From: Daphnia pulex
Lineage: Eukaryota > Arthropoda > Branchiopoda > Diplostraca > Daphniidae
Reading direction: 5' to 3'
Length of the DNA: 64,000 nucleotides
Assembly (NCBI RefSeq): GCF_021134715.1
Contig: NC_060018.1
Span: forward strand, 3,923,501 to 3,987,500
The notes beneath the pieces are model-generated. The model had not been told where the DNA came from and did not search any database. It saw only the letters and a program-made list of their open reading frames with translations. Shown here piece by piece: positions 49,914-60,052 of this stretch (positions are counted from its first letter, which is position 1; every line of letters starts with the position of its first letter). The position numbers and the translations under genes are program-made.

Positions 49914-51431
49914 TTAAACACCAAAATTGCTGAGGTAAAGACGTCTTTGAAAGGTAAAAAAATCCACCAGCTCGTTGATGGATGATTCCGAAATTTTATT
50001 AAACAAAATGTCACGTACGACGTATTCCACTTCTGATATCGCTGCATTCACCAGACGCCCACTAACTTGAAACAAAAGACATATAAATTAATTACATTAT
50101 TCACGAGGCAAACATTAAACTTTTTATCTACCATCTTTCAGTAGTTTGACGCCATGGACTGCTTCAAGAGAGACCATCCAACGTTCCAGTCGGTGATATT
50201 GCGTTTCATCAGATGTCCTCACGATAGTATTCCGGTCGTTGATGCAGCAGAGAATATCGGAATCAACTGATTGCTGCGACTCGTCTGATTCATCGTAAGT
50301 ATTCTCAGAGAGATGATCAAGTGACCATGATCGGTCATTTGTCAAAGTGTAAGTAGACGTCGCGTCCGTCAGTGTTAACGAGCTGAGAGCACCGATCAAA
50401 GTTTGCGTTGGTGGATTCCACCTTCGACGAGGATCTTTTTTAGTCTTAACAATTTGGCTCTTACTTTTGACGAATGTTCCTTTTGCAGGCCGTGTTAGCG
50501 GGGTAGCATAGACCGAAAGAGACCCGAGTGATTTGCGGTTGATGGAACTGATAACTAGCTTTCGTTTGGTAACAGACTGATGCGTCTGTTTGATTGAGAA
50601 AAGGCGTTTCCTGAGGAGAGCTTCAGCTGATGGTCGGTCTTCGGGATTCTTTCGCAACATTGTTGCTACAGTCTGTCGCAGTTCGTAGCTGTAACGGGCC
50701 GGCATCGGGGGGAAGTGGCCGCGCACTATGGCGATCAACAACTGGTTCATGTTACGCCCCGTGAATGGCGGCCGAAGGGTCATTAACTGGTACAAGACAC
50801 ACCCCAAACTCCAGATATCACTTTTACTGTTGTATTGGCGATTCCCGCAAATCTCAGGCGACAAATATCCCGGCGTACCGACGCACGTCCGTGCCATTTG
50901 GCCAGTCCGTTCAAGCACTTTGGCCACACCGAAATCGCCAAGTTTCAGTACCGAAGGATTGGCCGTCACAAAAATGTTGCCCGTTTTGATATCTCTGTGT
51001 AGGATTTTCCGCTTGTGAAGGTAATCCAGGGCTGAGGCTAGTTGTTGAAACCAATTGAGAATTTGTGTCTCTGGGATTGGAACACCTCGTCTTTGACGAA
51101 TGACAGCTGCGACGTCACCTCCTGGGCAATACTCCATCACGAGACATAAATTTCCGGTGACGGGTGATTCAAAAGAGTCGAAATAGCGAATGATATTCGA
51201 ATGATTCAACTGAGACAAGAGTCGGCCTTCCTGACGGGCAGCATCGCGTTGTTTTTCATCTCGGATGCAGATTTCCTTCAGCACGTAATTCAAAGCTCCG
51301 TTTTCAGGACTTTTGCAATTGCTACGTACCCCGTTTGCTCCTTTCGCCTCAGCCGTCGCCATTCGTATCAAGAAAACAGTCCCAAAAGATCCACGACCGA
51401 GCACTCGTTCCTTGATGTAATTCAACGCCAT
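49914..51431 (-). CDS. NIMA-related serine/threonine kinase (Nek family)
   Basis: Protein kinase with an N-terminal catalytic domain. The start at 51431 gives MALNYIKERVLGRGSFGTVF (Gly-rich loop). The nucleotide-binding Lys is in NYVLKEI, and later motifs are LVMEYCPGGDVAAVI, HRDIKTGNIF, LGDFGVAKVL, CVGTPGYLSPEI, YNSKSDIWSLGCVLYQL and RPPFTGRNMNQLLIAIVRG. The catalytic domain ends near residue 275. The basic, then Ser/Asp-rich, tail has no obvious coiled coil. The open frame reaches a stop at 50124, but a donor at 50131 joins in phase to 49914-50065 (LVNAAISEVEYVVRDILFNK, INELVDFFTFQRRLYLSNFG), making 483 residues. I prefer the spliced form. The GTPGYLSPE and loop motifs fit the Nek family; the subgroup is undecided. 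Confidence 0.9.
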
Positions 51432-53505
51432 TTTGTTGTTGTTATTCTTCCGCTCTGTGCCGTGTGAGCTGTACGCACTCGATTGATCTCTCCCTCTTTC
51501 TGTGATATCCCTTTGTTTACTTATTTTCCGTCACCTAGGCAACCGTAACTATTTAGTTCTAGTTAGTATATATTTCTTCGAATAATTTGTCTTTCTTTTT
51601 GCTTTTACGTCGATTATATCATACCACCTAAAATCTAATATAATAAGAAGTTGAAATAGATTTACGGACTTTGGATAACGTTGGTATTCATCTGCGCATT
51701 TTACTTTTAGAAAACAAATTGACTATGGCGCTACTGCGCCTGCTCAGTTCATATCCATTCACTATTCCTGTGCTGACTTTTATTTGAAACTTGAAACAGC
51801 CCAAGTAAAATGTGACGTGAAAGTAAAAGTACGGTAATTTGTGGCTCTAAATAAAAATTATTTATGTCAAAATTTGTTTAAAATGTTTCAGCTCATTAAG
51901 CGTTAGTCATTAAACTAAATAAGTCTTAACAATGCGATTTTTCGGTACTTTAAAAGAAACGATTGCGGTGCGCTCTTAATTAGCGACTGCGAAATATTCG
52001 ACATTTTGAGGAGGGAGCGGGAAAAAAATTCCAACGACTTCGCATGACTTGGTTTACGTTAGCGGTGGAATAGAAAGGCGAACGATATGATTGTATCACG
52101 AAAAAAATTGACAGCGATCTAACCACTAATTCTATTTTATAGACGTAGGCGGCCGTATTTGCTTTGTATTAACGGTACATTTTCCATTCGTAAAAAATAA
52201 AAATCTATTAACACTTCCTTTTCAAATGCTCATTCACACGGAAATTCTTCAATTTTTTTTAAATGCAAAACAATGGGGTCCGTTAACTTTTTGTGACGTC
52301 ACCGAGTTCTTGTTGGTTGGTTTGTCCATCGTTGAACTCTCTCGAAATCTTTTGGATGTGCATTTCAACGTGCTGGTTCCCTTATTGAGTTTTAATAGAC
52401 GTAACCGGTCATGAGTATTTGGTTGTTGACCAGCGGCGGGTTCACGACGCTCCTTTATTTATTCTCGATGCGAACGAACGAGAGAAAACCAAAAAATGTT
52501 CTACTTTTCTATTTTTCGTTATCGTTTCTTTTGAAAGGTGAAAATTGTGGTTGCGAGTTTCTTTTCTTGACTGCATTTATGCATAAATTTAAATTTTCAT
52601 CCCCAAATGTCGCTTGTTACATCATAGCAACAGCAGACAACAGACTGCAAATCACAGCTGTCTGCTTAGTTGAATTTATGCAACAATGGGTAGAGTTGGC
52701 GGATGGGCGTGATTTCAGAATAAAAAAGAAGTTCACCTTGCCGTGCAACCTTCCTCCAAGGCAACCCGGACATATCACTCGACTGGTGGGTAACTGAAGT
52801 AAAAAGTATTGGTGGGAAAACCCGTGCGAAGTGCGTATCAGCCGTGTAGTGTTGAAGTTCAACAGAAATCATCATCCAAAATATTTCTACTAGTTCATTT
52901 TAACCCTTCTTTCACATTTTTCAAACAAGTGTTGTTTGGTAGCACCTTAACCAAACAAGTTTCTGAAGAGCCCATTCCCCGGAACGATAGTATCGAGATA
53001 AAGAGAAAGTCCAAGACTTTCACCATCAGCAGAGACTTTCACGCTATGTGAGAGGCCCACACTGCCCCGGGACTTGAACGCAGTGCTACAGGCAATCAGG
53101 ATATACATATACATATTTTTTTTTTCTTTTTAAGTCGCAGTCATATAGAGGATACCGACTGTTGCAGATGTCGTGCAGCGGGTAAGTTGGCCAATTTTAA
53201 ATTAAACTCAGGAAATGCAAAATAATTTTCCCTTTTGTTATTTGGATTGACAGGAAGCCGCTTGTTTAATGCACAATCACGCAGTTGTCGGTTACGAAAT
53301 GCAGGTACAAAAGCCTTTTTTGACAGAGTTTGCGTGAGCATAATATAGTACGAGCTTTAACAAAGAGAAAAGAATCAAAGTCGGCCAACTAAGCCACATT
53401 CTCCCCAACTTGCGCGTGTTTTTATTATTACAGAATATAGTACTGTTAGTTATTATTTGAACAGCAGTGTTTTCACCACAGTAGCTCAGTGTCTGTGTCC
53501 TGGGC
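51432..53505. other. Intergenic and 5' UTR exons of the SLC10 gene
   Basis: About 2.1 kb. The left part is the kinase promoter. Near the right end, splice-like signals (donor after GTGCAGCG at about 53179, acceptor GACAG at about 53261, donor after AAATGCAG at about 53305, acceptor TTACAG at about 53437) suggest small 5' UTR exons ahead of the transporter start. Open frames between 52226 and 52875 conflict on both strands and show no family resemblance. Confidence 0.4.
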
Positions 53506-55274
53506 ATGATGTGCATAATGTGGTCGGTGAATTCCTTACTTCGTGCGACGTGTTTATTGATCATCAATGTAATTACAACAACCAGTTGTAACGGTCAATA
53601 TGTGAATCGAACCAACATCGACAACTCCGATGGTCTATGGGTCTTGACTGCTGATCCACTGAAACTTGAAAAAATCACGGAAAAATTTCCGTATACCATC
53701 AATCTAACCTTGAGTTATGCCAAAAGTGAGGATGATTCGCCACCGGTTTACGCAGCCACACCAGAAGCCTTTCGTTTTGTCGTAAAAGTCTCAATGTCAA
53801 ATCGACAGACTGTGGCAATTCAGGATAACAACCAGAAAATCGAGTTTACTTGGGCCGAAATTACTGAAGGAACTAACAAGTCCATCGAAGTTATCGGGCA
53901 AGTAATTGGTTACGTCGATCTCAACTTTGTTTTGGACATTTTACCTGCAAACGATTCATCCGTTCCTGTGAAAACGATCCCCATTTTATCCAGCTATTTG
54001 GTGACCGTCGTTCGGGCTAGTGATACGCTGGATAACGTATTCACCATGTAAGTAATGTTACTTAAAAAATTCTATCAGTCAATTAACTTTAATTTGTTCT
54101 TTATTTCATTTCGACAGTATTATGATTGTAATGGCCGTGCTTAACTTAATTAATATGGGATGCGCACTTGACTTGGCTATCGTAAAACAAAACATTCTCC
54201 GTCCAGTCGGATTAATCGTTGGATTCATCTCCCAGTTTACTTTCATGCCATTGGTAAGTTGATAAATATAGACGCGTGAACTGATTGTGTGATGAATAAC
54301 AATATGTTTCTTCATTTGCGAACAGTTTTCATTTGGCGTAGCTATGCTCATGATCCAGGACCCTCTGATGGGTTTTGGATTGTTGGTGATTGGCGTTTGC
54401 CCCGGTGGCATAGCCTCGAATTTTTGGACGTTGCTGTTGGACGGTGACGTCAATCTGAGTATAACTATGACCTTCGTTTCATCCATTGCTGCCATGGGTA
54501 AGCGTTATCATTCAGAATCCCCGCGCACGAAAATAATTATTTTCTATTCGTAGGAATGATGCCATTGTGGCTTTGGCTATTGTCTGGGTTCTTCTTACCT
54601 AAAGGATCGTCCGTCAAAGTGCCTTATGATAACATGGCCCTATCTTTAATTTTATTGACATTTCCACTTGGAATCGGAATTTTGATTCGTCGATTCAAAT
54701 TTTCTCTCGCCGAATTTTTAACTGGGAAAATTCTGAAAAAGTTTTCCGTCTTTTTCATCATCTTTATTATCGGAGTAAAACAATAATTTACGACCTAACA
54801 TCATGACTTGTGACATAACAAGTTGATTTCTTTTTCTAGCTGGGAATTTACAGCATGTCGCACATAACCGTTCTAATGGATTGGATTTTGTTAGCTGCCG
54901 GATTAGCCGTGACAGTGTCGGGTTTCCTGTTTGGCGCTGTTTTCGCTTGGGTTGCGCGGCTCAGTCGCCCACAGATTATTGCCGTGTCGTTAGAGACGGC
55001 TATGCAAAACGCCAATATTGCCTTCGTCCTACTGAAGACAACTTTACCGACTCCATACAGCGATATTGCTGCACTTCCGGCAGTGGCTCAGATAATCATG
55101 ACAACTTCTATATTGTTTTTCTTTCTAGGAATCAATACCACGTATAAATGCGCTCAGAAATACTGCATACAACCCAAAAAAGAAAAAGAGGAAATAGAAA
55201 CAAACAATTCCAGTGGATATCGCAACAAAGCATATTGCACCGATGAAACGACTGCAGTAGGAAATCCATTGTAA
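53506..55274 (+). CDS. SLC10-family (bile acid:sodium symporter-like) transporter
   Basis: Predicted sodium-coupled solute transporter of the SLC10 family. Exons 53506-54047, 54118-54253, 54326-54497, 54554-54774 and 54840-55274 give 501 residues. A signal peptide-like segment (LLRATCLLIINVITTTSC) is followed by about 150 mostly extracellular residues with Asn-linked glycosylation sites. The membrane domain then begins (FTIIMIVMAVLNLINMGCAL). Family motifs are ILRPVGLIVGFISQFTFMPL, GFGLLVIGVCPGGIASNFWT, LDGDVNLSITMTFVSSIAAM, GMMPLWLWLLSGFFLP and ETAMQNANIAFVLLKTTLPT. The long N-terminal ectodomain resembles the SLC10A3/SLC10A5 (P3-like) branch more than the compact NTCP/ASBT proteins. The substrate cannot be predicted. 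The C-terminus is cytosolic, Lys/Glu-rich and ends TTAVGNPL. Confidence 0.92.
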
Positions 55275-56122
55275 TCCAATCTCTTGCAACTGTAAATATT
55301 TTAAAAATCCCAAACGAGTATAATAGACTAGAGCAATATGGGATATATTGCGGTCTTAGGAATACAGATATGCTGAGGGAGTCATTGAACGTTTTGATTA
55401 CATTATTCAGACAAGCACAATTTATTACTTTATCCAAGTGACATAAAAATACCTTTATAAGAATGCCAAACATTCCTTTCCAATTTTGTATTGTACTTGG
55501 TGATTTGTCGAATAAACTTTTGAATTTTTTATTGTTTGAACTTTGAACAAGAATAACTACGAAATTAAAAAATCCGATAACTTGATGTGCGGCGCAAGTT
55601 TTTCCCTAGGACTATAGGAGCACTTGCGTTGAATCCTTACAAATTTAGTTTAATCTTAAAAAAGAAATTTTGATTTGTGGAATATATTTGGAATCGATTT
55701 TCAAATCTTTCGATTTTCAAATTTCAGTCTAGTGCAGTCTCCCTATCACTCTGAGAGGACAGTGCCATCTTATCGGATGATGGAGGAGACAGTAAAAAAC
55801 ATAGTTTCGTCCTCCAGATGTCTCTGCTCTATGATACGAGTTAATGTCAGCTTTTTGTACTGAACATTTCGGTCACTTCTATTTCTTCGCTCACACGTGC
55901 TGTGACATTTCATACTACGTCGCCATTGTAAAAAATTTTTGTTACTGTAAAAGTTAAATATCTAGTTTGATTTAGTTGTCCAGTAGAAAAGTCTTTTTGT
56001 AATTGGAAAAATCTGAGTTTGATTTAGGATGTTACTTAGTTGATTTATACTTTAATTTAGATTAATTTAAGTCACATGTATAAATTTCCGATCATCGTCC
56101 GTCGAGAATGTTTGCTTGAAAG
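55275..56122 (+). other. Intergenic; upstream part of a probable non-coding host gene
   Basis: No coding exon was seen after the SLC10 stop. A pyrimidine-rich segment (CACTTCTATTTCTTCGC near 55874) could be a TOP-like transcription start for the snoRNA-type host gene whose first recognised donor is at 56123. The start and any further upstream exons are not resolved. Confidence 0.3.
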
Positions 56123-56155
56123 GTAAATTTTGCATACCATTTGAACGTTGTTATA

Positions 56156-56277
56156 TCCTCCTACTAATCTGCCATTTCTCTTTGGAATGCTGGAGTTATA
56201 AGAGGGAAAAGTAAAATGAGTGGGCACGTTAGCATTCAGACTGTTACATGGTCTTTGTGTATCAAGAAACTCTTTCA
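56156..56277 (+). ncRNA. H/ACA-like snoRNA candidate, copy 1
   Basis: First of three paralogues. It begins TCCTCCTACTAATCTG and ends AACTCTTTCA. The 5' hairpin has lower pairing CCTC/GAGG and upper stem CATTTC/GGAATG, leaving a pocket with ACTAATCTG on its left. The hinge GAAAAGTAAAA contains an H-box form (ANANNA, AAAGTA). The 3' hairpin has lower stem GAGT/ACTC, a pocket GGGCACGTTA/ATCAAGAA, and upper stem GCAT..AGAC/GTCT..GTGT. The pocket-to-end distance of about 15 bases is right for H/ACA RNAs. The terminal box reads TCA rather than ACA, which lowers certainty. Confidence 0.55.
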
Positions 56278-56479
56278 AAAATCGTGAAACTTCTACTTGT
56301 GTAATTTTGGTTAATTATACTTATGTTGTTGCCATCAACAGGTTTCCAGTGAGGAGTCCACTTGCTGTTATTATCCAATGGTTGATGTCGGATTCTTGAA
56401 AAGATGGCTTGAAATGTCAAGTCATATTTGGTCGTGAACCAAAAGGCATGTTATATTCATTATGATCATTCCTTAGTGT

Positions 56480-56602
56480 AACCTCTAACTAATCTGCTAT
56501 TTCTTTATGGAGTAGTGGAATTTTAAGGGGTAAAAGTACAAAGAGTGGGCACGTTAGCATTTAGACTGTCATTTGGTCTTGATGTATCAAGATACTCTTT
56601 CA
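56480..56602 (+). ncRNA. H/ACA-like snoRNA candidate, copy 2
   Basis: Second paralogue, about 324 bases after copy 1. It begins AACCTCTAACTAATCTG. Its differences keep the fold: ACCTCT now pairs with AGGGGT by one G-T wobble. The 5' upper stem is CTATTTC/GGAGTAG (C-G changed to T-A against copy 3). The 3' upper stem is GCATTTAGAC/GTCTTGATGT, with one wobble replaced by a Watson-Crick pair. The pocket GGGCACGTTA is unchanged, while the apical loop differs (TGTCATTTG). This pattern of paired changes supports selection on structure. Confidence 0.55.
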
Positions 56603-56799
56603 GTGATAATCTTCTATTGTCTATTCATTAAATGTTTATTAATTTGATGTTTGTTCACAGGTGCATTTCCATTGAAAAGCCATTGCTGATAAACCATGAG
56701 CTGACTGAATTTCACTGAACTGAATCTTTTTTGCATGAAGAGATGGTCATCAACATTCACATTCTTCATTAGAAAGGTATATTTTCTCATATGTTTTAT

Positions 56800-56924
56800 A
56801 ACCTCTAACTAATCTGCCATTTTCCTTTGAAATGGTGGAATTCTAAGAGGTAAAAGTAAATAAAGAGTGGGCACGTTAGCATTCAGACTGTTACGTGGTC
56901 TTTGTGTATCAAGAAACTTTTTCA
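56800..56924 (+). ncRNA. H/ACA-like snoRNA candidate, copy 3
   Basis: Third paralogue, 320 bases after copy 2. It has the best 5' hairpin: ACCTCT/AGAGGT closes it and CCATTT/AAATGG forms the upper stem. The hinge is AAAAGTAAATA. The 3' hairpin again carries the invariant AGAGTGGGCACGTTAGCATT, with upper stem AGAC/GTCT and apical loop TGTTACGTG. The terminal sequence is CTTTTTCA, so the ACA box is again replaced by TCA. It lies 23 bases after its donor and 68 before its acceptor. Confidence 0.55.
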
Positions 56925-57013
56925 ATTGGAATTTTATAGAAAATTCCAGTAGTTACTGCAACTAAGATACTAACTGTTTATTTTCTCTTAAGGTTTTGAA
57001 GATTCTCTGGAGG

Positions 57014-57645
57014 GTAAGTGTTGGGGTACTTCAGTCATTGTATGTATGAAATGGTAAGTATTGTGAAATACTGGATTATACCTGAGAAGTGTATTTATTT
57101 ACATGTAAAAAAATACATTTTTTCTTGATTATCCTGTTTGTTTTATTGTGTCTAAATGCCTCAAGAGTTTTGTTAAGATGAAAGAGGAAAAAACATACCT
57201 GTATTTAATTCGAAGTAGCCTAGTTACCTGAGTTGAAACCGTGTGAAAAGAAACTTCGTAAGGCTAAGTTTCTATTTATTCACTTTACCTATGACTTCGC
57301 TTTATGAATTGATGTCGGATATAAATTATACCCGACAACAATACCGTATAATAGAAATATCGAAGTGGGATTAAAGTAAAAGTGAGATGGGAAGTAATAT
57401 ATGGGTTTCATAAGCTAGCTTCATTGAGGATGACATTGAAATTTTGCAGATATCTTTTAGAAGTGTTTAAACTTAGATTTTGTTACACGTGACTGATATA
57501 GATGAAGTGTTTGCCAAGCTATCTTGGCAGGCGTTCTCGTAATGTTCATTCGTGTATTGTTCGTGACGTGATAAGTAGAACAGATTACAGTAGGGTTTTT
57601 AAGCGATACACTGAAATGTTACAACATTAAGTAATATGTTTAACT
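57014..57645. other. Intergenic between snoRNA-type locus and Ddc
   Basis: About 630 AT-rich bases; no fourth repeat copy and no coding exon. The right side is the Ddc 3' UTR on the minus strand. Confidence 0.45.
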
Positions 57646-60052
57646 TCAGTTTTTCAACAGTTGCTGCTGACCCGTTAGAGCATCGGCGTGACTTCTAAGT
57701 TCCTGCCAAGCAAAAAGAATATCGCGTGATTCGGTGTAACGAGAACAGACGGCCAGTCGAAGAACGAATTGTCCGCGAAGCTTAGCCGGCACCATGTGTA
57801 TCCTTCCCGCATCGTTGATTCTTTTCAGTAATGTTTCGTTCAAACTATTTTCTCCCTTTGAGTGCACATAATTAATTGAATAACAATTTTTGGTCGAAAT
57901 CCATATTTGTTAAGTCCAATACCTTCATCCGGAAGCAAACAAGGCCCAAGGCAGGAGGAACTGGAACCTCAAAGCGATCGTCGTTGACCACCAGTTGGTG
58001 GAATTCACAGGCCAGTTTGATCTGACGGCGAATGTGAGCCCGCAGTCCTTCCGCGCCGTAAGTACGCATTACAAACCAGAGTTTCAGTGAGCGAAATCGC
58101 CTCCCCAGGGGAATTTGCCAATGCTGCAAAGTGTAAAGTTTCTTTCAATCTACTGTATACAATTTAATATAATCTCTACCCGGTAATCCGGTGCTTGTCC
58201 CTGTCGATCGTGTTTCAAGTACAAAGGATCGACGTTGAAAGCATCTACCACATCATTTGCATTTTTCAACCTATCGGTAATAATCAATATTATGTCATAG
58301 TAGTCTAGTAAAATTTCCGTTTGAACTCTGTTTCAGTTTATTACCACATAGCAGAGCAGTCAAAATTGACTAAAAGCCATTTGTGCGGGTTGAAGTTGAA
58401 CGAATCGGCCAACTCTAGACCATTCAAATGGTGGCGGTATTCATCGCAAATGAAAGCTGAGCCTGTACAGTTAGAAAAATGTTGAAGAGAATTAAACCGG
58501 ATTTTTTTTTAGATATTTACCAGCATAGGCGGCGTCAACGTGCAGCCAAATATTTTCAAATTGATGACAGACTGGGCCGATCTCGGACAGGTCGTCGAAA
58601 GCGCAAGAAGGTGTTGTACCCAAAGTTGCCGTAACCTAAGTTTCCACATATTTCTGTGTTTTTTATTTAATTATTTTCATTAGGTTGAATCTATTATACA
58701 AAGAACGGGATGAATCCTTTAGCTCTATCTTCTTCCATTGCCAATTTTAGAGTTTCTCCTCGCAGACTGAAAAGTTCGTCACTCTGAAGAAGACGAACCC
58801 GAACGCCGGCCAGAATTCCAGCTCTTTCCACCGAAGAATGCGATTGATCTAGAAGATACGTATGTTTAGCAATGATAGAAATCACACTGAACTACAGTAA
58901 AAAAACATTTTGAATACCTGAAGAGTAAGCAAGCAATCGACCGACAATTTGGCTTTCATCGACTTCTGGATCCATTGCTTTCAAACGATTGATGGCCTTC
59001 GCTTTTGCTGCCAAGAGAGCCACAAGGGTTGCCTCACTAGCCGTTCCCTTTGGAACAAATTCAATTACTTTAAATAACTTAAAAGTTATAGTAAAAGGAA
59101 CTAGGATACTTGAATCACGCCACCTCCTGTCCCTCCGGAACAGGCGAGAAATTGAGAAGGAAGACCGAGTAGTTGTCCCAACCAGTCCATCATGACAACT
59201 TCTAGGTCAGTACAAGCAGGACTCGCAATCTGTTCCCACATTATTTCAGTATTACATTAAAACTTTTATTTTGAATAATTAACAGATAAATTGAATTGTA
59301 TGGTGCTTACCCAAGAAAAGCCAATGCAACCAATAGCGTCACTCAAAATATCGGCTAAAATAGCCGGCCAAGAATTGCCAGTAGGAAAATAAGCGTGGAA
59401 ATGAGGAGAGTGCCAGTGAGTTACCTAAAAACAAAATAGGTTACAATCTCCATCTATACTACGTAACTTACTTACTACGTAAATTTAATCAGTGATTAAT
59501 TACCCCAGGCATAATAACTCGTTCAACATCTTGGAAAATTGCTTGCCATGGCTCCCCTTGTTCCGGTGCGGTTGCGGGTATCATATCCCGAATGTAGCCG
59601 GGTTGGACCGTCGGCAGGACACGCCTACATGATAACATTTCATCAACGACACAAGCCCACGTATTATTCTTTTCCTACTTCATTATTGCATATTAAGCTC
59701 GCCAATAATTCAGCCCAAAAGAGATCTCCAGTTAATTGGACAATGAATCAGACTGTCTCATTTCATTAGTTTCATCAACAGACTAAAGGGGGAGATGAAA
59801 AAATATAATAAGGGAAGGCGGATCTCTTCCCCTACTCCTTTTGCCACCGACGTGATAACACTTGCTTCCCTTGAGAAATGTACAGTCACCATATCATATC
59901 TCATACTGATTTCTTTCTTCTTTCTGCTAGTGAGACCGCGTGATTCCTTTAATCAACAAAAATGCGACTAACCTGCTGCGGATATTTTCCAGATAGTCGA
60001 TGATGAAGTCAATCATCTCGTGAGCAGCGGAGCGAAACTGTTGCGCATCCAT
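57646..60052 (-). CDS. Ddc: Aromatic-L-amino-acid (DOPA) decarboxylase
   Basis: Pyridoxal-phosphate enzyme making dopamine and serotonin, and in arthropods supplying cuticle hardening. Eleven exons give 482 residues in phase: 59973-60052, 59504-59624, 59311-59424, 59110-59229, 58918-59047, 58700-58848, 58521-58635, 58345-58462, 58180-58270, 57923-58123 and 57646-57855. It starts [20 protein letters not shown], followed by [82 protein letters not shown] and [31 protein letters not shown] and [20 protein letters not shown] (cofactor Lys) follow, then [16 protein letters not shown]. The match to vertebrate DDC is close along the whole protein, so I choose DDC over tyrosine or histidine decarboxylase. 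A TATA box lies upstream. Confidence 0.96.

Follow-up and report, generated by a model that had tools for sequence, protein, structure and literature searches.

Probable H/ACA-like snoRNA paralogs, one per predicted intron of a putative non-coding host gene, in Daphnia pulex

Introduction

A 64,000-nucleotide stretch of the Daphnia pulex genome (contig NC_060018.1, positions 3,923,501 to 3,987,500; 'the window') contains three repeats that are probably paralogous H/ACA-like small nucleolar RNAs (snoRNAs), one to each intron of a non-coding host gene of the UHG/gas5 type, and multiplied by duplication within that gene. This assignment is drawn from sequence comparison and structure prediction. 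We refer to the RNAs as 'H/ACA-like' because the ACA box was tested for and is absent from all three copies. The locus very probably represents a known kind of layout combined with a variant 3' box. A preliminary description of this DNA had already read the repeats as H/ACA-type RNAs, one per intron of a non-coding host, and the fold, the pocket-to-box spacing, the conservation of the pocket, the copy number and the stops in the predicted exons all support that reading. Counted against it are the missing ACA (3/3), the poor fold of copy 1 when taken alone, the 3' hairpin of copy 3, covariation that falls short of significance, a 3' pocket whose difference from the stem regions is likewise not significant, the lack of a match in Rfam, the lack of a convincing target and a GC splice donor.

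Sequence conservation and copy number

Each about 125 nt long, the copies occupy 56154–56278 (copy 1), 56479–56603 (copy 2) and 56801–56925 (copy 3) of the forward strand, where the preliminary description had placed them. Their starts are 325 and 322 bases apart; the near-equal spacing noticed earlier stands, and these values replace the 320–324 given for it. In alignment, copy 1 is 89% and copy 2 is 83% identical to copy 3. An ungapped repeat comparison gives copy 3 an identity of 60%, because two extra nucleotides in its hinge throw the comparison out of step.

Likeness among the copies stops abruptly outside these cores, and conservation ends with the letters TCA. Compared with shuffled sequences, the three pairs of cores stand at z 41 to 58, while all five pairs of predicted exons (z −1.5 to 1.0, with exon 1 taken as the 104 bases preceding the first donor) and all six pairs of predicted intron ends (z −0.9 to 1.7) are near chance. 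The intervening exons are thus as dissimilar as had been stated. A profile built from the three copies (R1) returns them at 153.0, 154.4 and 150.4 bits (copies 1, 2 and 3), scores that are high by construction; its five other matches in the window reach at most 21.0 bits, and three of these lie antisense over the copies. Searches of the 133-Mb genome turned up no further copies, either with a 25-base key allowing up to three mismatches or with a whole copy at E ≤10, the latter in a search that skips very common words. A dispersed transposon is unlikely because the genome yields three copies only, and the homology to a scattered transposable element that the preliminary description had named as fatal to its reading did not appear.

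Predicted secondary structure

When the three copies are aligned and folded together, the forward strand adopts a hairpin–hinge–hairpin structure of −30.1 kcal/mol (alifold). Column-shuffled alignments average −15.6 kcal/mol (sd 3.0, n=1000), and one in the thousand is as good (z about −4.8); the shape earlier ascribed to each copy finds its support here. The antisense alignment fold is equalled by 42 of 500 shuffles, and an antisense RNA was rejected for want of a clear fold. Of the 105 cells of the consensus pairing, 95.2% pair, and 35–50% do so when partners are slid by one to three columns. Changes on both sides occur in two of the 35 pairs (A-U/U-G and C-G/U-A). With three sequences, covariation alone is not significant (63 of 500 partner shuffles reach the observed values), and neither are the pair types (169 of 500 shuffled-partner sets are as good). 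The C-G/U-A change is one that the preliminary description had already named.

The copies fold less convincingly one at a time. Copy 1 does no better than its shuffles (z +0.55; 134 of 200 at least as good); copies 2 and 3 reach z −2.35 and −2.45. Compared with the best fold of each copy, the consensus fold is less stable by 2.3 kcal/mol in copy 1, 3.1 in copy 2 and 2.6 in copy 3, and in copy 3 the lowest-energy 3' hairpin differs from the consensus hairpin.

Box elements and pockets

The hinge carries the invariant sequence AAAGTA in all three copies (56208–56213, 56533–56538 and 56853–56858). It fits the H-box consensus ANANNA, as the preliminary description had supposed of the hinge, and is weak evidence for an H/ACA RNA, being a short motif in a hinge rich in A. 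Directly after the second stem, at the place of the ACA box, all three copies read TCA (56275–56277, 56600–56602 and 56922–56924), which confirms a departure noticed from the start; the predicted mature 3' ends fall near 56280, 56605 and 56927. The ACA that an H/ACA RNA is expected to carry three bases short of its 3' end was found in none of the copies, either at the TCA itself or within the next 15 bases. Expressed human H/ACA snoRNAs are reported to have ACA in 89.4% of cases and the H motif in 55.6% (PMC10234308), and a study of Drosophila calls degenerate boxes frequent (PMC5932544).

Counted from the unpaired base that opens each pocket, the place of the box is reached after 13 nt (5' hairpin) or 14 nt (3' hairpin), the same in 3/3 copies and inside the 13–16 nt expected between a pocket and its H or ACA box. 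The modified uridine is described as lying 14–16 nt before the box (PMC2780460, PMC3542256), and a 13–16 nt rule has been given from trypanosome RNAs (PMC2613932).

The 3' pocket strands are GGGCACGTTA / ATCAAGAA, and the first of these is the strand that had been called invariant; it is indeed identical in all three copies. The left side of the pocket occupies 56222–56231, 56547–56556 and 56869–56878 in copies 1, 2 and 3, and the right side 56261–56268, 56586–56593 and 56908–56915. These columns are nearly invariant: one of 18 varies (0/10 on the left strand, 1/8 on the right), compared with 3/12 in the 5' pocket, 6/10 in the apical loops and 15/72 in the stem regions. The 3' pocket is less variable than the apical loops (p 0.003); against the stem regions, the difference in column variation is not significant (p 0.18).

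Comparison with RNA families extends to the whole window. The covariance search against Rfam that had been proposed was negative there at the gathering score, and at E values up to 10 it gave two matches only, both at chance level, so that no known Rfam family can be named for the repeats. A search of 55800–57800 for box C/D RNAs found none with a terminal stem of at least three pairs.

The predicted host gene and its neighbours

On the forward strand, predicted intron 1 spans 56123–56341 (219 nt), intron 2 spans 56446–56660 (215 nt) and intron 3 spans 56777–56992 (216 nt). The preliminary description had given the same lengths, and these and the AG acceptors hold; introns 1 and 3 begin with GT, and intron 2 requires a GC donor (AAAG/GCATGT) that had gone unmentioned. 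Each predicted intron contains one copy, beginning 24–33 nt past the donor and ending 58–68 nt ahead of the acceptor (counted from the A of TCA). Predicted exons 2 (56342–56445) and 3 (56661–56776) resemble none of the others, and predicted exon 4 (56993–57013) is followed directly by a GTAAGT donor at 57014. Once the predicted exons are joined, every one of the three frames is interrupted by stops, and the longest forward-strand ATG frame overlapping 55400–57700 is 42 aa.

Just to the left of the predicted host gene, at 53485–55274 on the forward strand, are frames resembling a membrane transporter, two pieces of which were scanned without a Pfam match. On the reverse strand, a protein kinase domain is encoded by a 468-aa frame at 50124–51530, and the right-hand neighbour (57872–59206) shows a pyridoxal-dependent decarboxylase domain in each of two pieces. 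An E-box (CACGTG) lies at 55894–55899, some 230 bases ahead of the first predicted donor; snoRNA genes have been reported as Myc targets (PMC4430873). This E-box may be there by chance, because it is one of seven in the window.

Search for targets

DNA and pattern searches of the assembly for the animal's own rDNA yielded one degenerate 28S copy, and an 18S core query had no match. The 28S copy is degenerate and shortened (L006:5467–7568, contig C9; 833.6 bits). Eukaryotic rDNA contaminating bacterial and viral contigs served as target proxies: among the rRNA-pattern matches, all eight contigs filed as bacterial (L014–L021) and both filed as viral (L012, L013) carry eukaryotic rRNA genes, so that public collections contain contaminated records. 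Against the proxy rRNA L017 the real guides perform at chance, with 61 to 238 of 300 shuffled guides as good over eight settings. The best 28S candidate comes from an arthropod-type 28S segment, and pairs by 3 + 8 bp in the pocket register, with one G-U. Its score is reached by 21 of 2000 shuffled guides over the L017 rRNA, before any correction for the eight settings. The same segment scores 23 and 21 in proxies L018 and L019, with the register shifted by one. We regard this segment as a candidate target in the sense of a weak lead only. It does not coincide with yeast pseudouridine 776, the site of snR80, since it falls near position 872 when counted on a yeast 25S sequence.

Single pocket strands also show complementarity: CAGGUUAGUU can pair over 10 bp, out of pocket register, with the left strand of the 5' pocket, and CUGACGUGC over 9–11 bp with that of the 3' pocket. 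These runs were not counted because, on a rough estimate, some 0.2 to 1 of them are expected by chance. The sense strands of the animal's own U2 and U5 genes (two loci each) offered nothing notable, with a best score of 11 in U2 and none in U5, and a scan of U6, comprising divergent-looking copies from the genome together with one further U6 sequence, produced no convincing target. Contig C8 carries a tandem array (about 6941829–6973456) whose unit contains U2-like and U5 genes and recurs every 8,871 bases exactly; the snRNA matches within it comprise four U5, four stronger U2 and four weak U2.

Proposed origin and action

If the assignment is right, each RNA would be released when its host intron is spliced out and debranched, and exonucleases would trim it to about 125–128 nt. 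Dyskerin, Nop10, Nhp2 and Gar1 would bind the trimmed RNA, with UCA taking over from ACA as the box at the 3' end. The 3' pocket would then pair around a uridine of the target RNA, and dyskerin would convert that uridine to pseudouridine. The copies themselves probably came from tandem duplication inside the host, after which the parts of each unit outside the RNA drifted beyond recognition. Duplication within a gene, with new copies placed in neighbouring introns, is described as one way in which snoRNAs expand (PMC2653536).

Alternative explanations

The three RNAs might be orphans, derived from H/ACA RNAs, made and bound by dyskerin, and serving in regulation, processing or as chaperones instead of guiding the modification of rRNA or snRNA. 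The unusual UCA box speaks for this, as does the failure to find a convincing target in proxy rRNA, in other snRNA sequences or in the animal's own U2 and U5, and Drosophila is said to have poorly conserved H/ACA RNAs without a plausible target (PMC5932544). The 3' pocket is, however, the least variable part of the copies, as expected of a guide, and the negative rRNA result is one for proxies of the animal's rRNA; we judge orphan status rather unlikely. A structured intronic RNA of some other class, or a cis element acting, for example, on splicing, would dispense with H/ACA proteins altogether. The missing ACA, the missing Rfam relative and the weak single fold of copy 1 are what might be expected of such an element, but two hairpins with internal loops, a hinge box and the right spacing make up the H/ACA layout in 3/3 copies, and the search of 55800–57800 revealed no box C/D RNA closed by a terminal stem; this explanation is quite improbable.

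Small Cajal body-specific RNAs (scaRNAs), which guide the modification of spliceosomal RNAs, have the same overall fold, and U2 and U5 are their usual targets. The best score of 11 in the animal's own U2, and none in its U5, nonetheless argue against a scaRNA, as do the six apical loops, none of which contains UGAG, the sequence given for the CAB motif (PMC4053766). The RNAs are very improbably of this kind. Least credible of all is a recent, non-functional tandem duplication of one exon–intron unit. Although the near-equal spacing of 325 and 322, the weak fold of copy 1 and the non-significant covariation would suit it, after such an event the exons and intron ends should still resemble one another, whereas both are near chance and the cores stand 41–58 SD above it; nor does it sit well with a fold confined to the sense strand that one shuffle in 1000 matches.

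Comparison with known systems

Taken as H/ACA-like snoRNAs, the Daphnia copies share with the box H/ACA snoRNAs of animals the hairpin–hinge–hairpin–tail order, an ANANNA hinge, the pocket-to-box distance, a length near 125 nt and a predicted position within introns. They differ in reading UCA for ACA (3/3) and in matching no Rfam family. The nematode H/ACA family ceN88, one of the two Rfam matches mentioned above, aligns weakly with copy 2, including the hinge AAAAGUA, but it scores 14.1 bits where the cut-off is 40 and has an E value of 7.9; the match is at chance level, and we claim no relationship. The predicted host resembles the UHG/gas5-type genes of vertebrates in having one RNA per predicted intron and short predicted exons without an open frame; unlike them, a single RNA family was seen in its three introns, and the gene itself is a prediction from sequence. 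Non-coding snoRNA host genes are also described in Drosophila (Uhg1–Uhg8; PMC13228274). The four DmSnR60 copies of the Drosophila mfl gene are likewise paralogous small RNAs that spread through successive introns by duplication, but they are of the box C/D type and their host codes for protein (PMC1821038). No catalogue of Daphnia snoRNAs was seen among the open-literature matches listed.

Apart from the variant box, then, the gene layout is well known, and the RNA family is one that Rfam misses. A bolder interpretation, unlikely on our assessment, is that the copies belong to a branch of H/ACA RNAs peculiar to crustaceans, whose ACA gave way to a stable UCA that was kept through two duplications, with a target possibly outside the rRNAs and spliceosomal RNAs. 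A fold, an H box and a pocket that survived two duplications in the company of UCA would test how strictly the dyskerin particles of animals need ACA.
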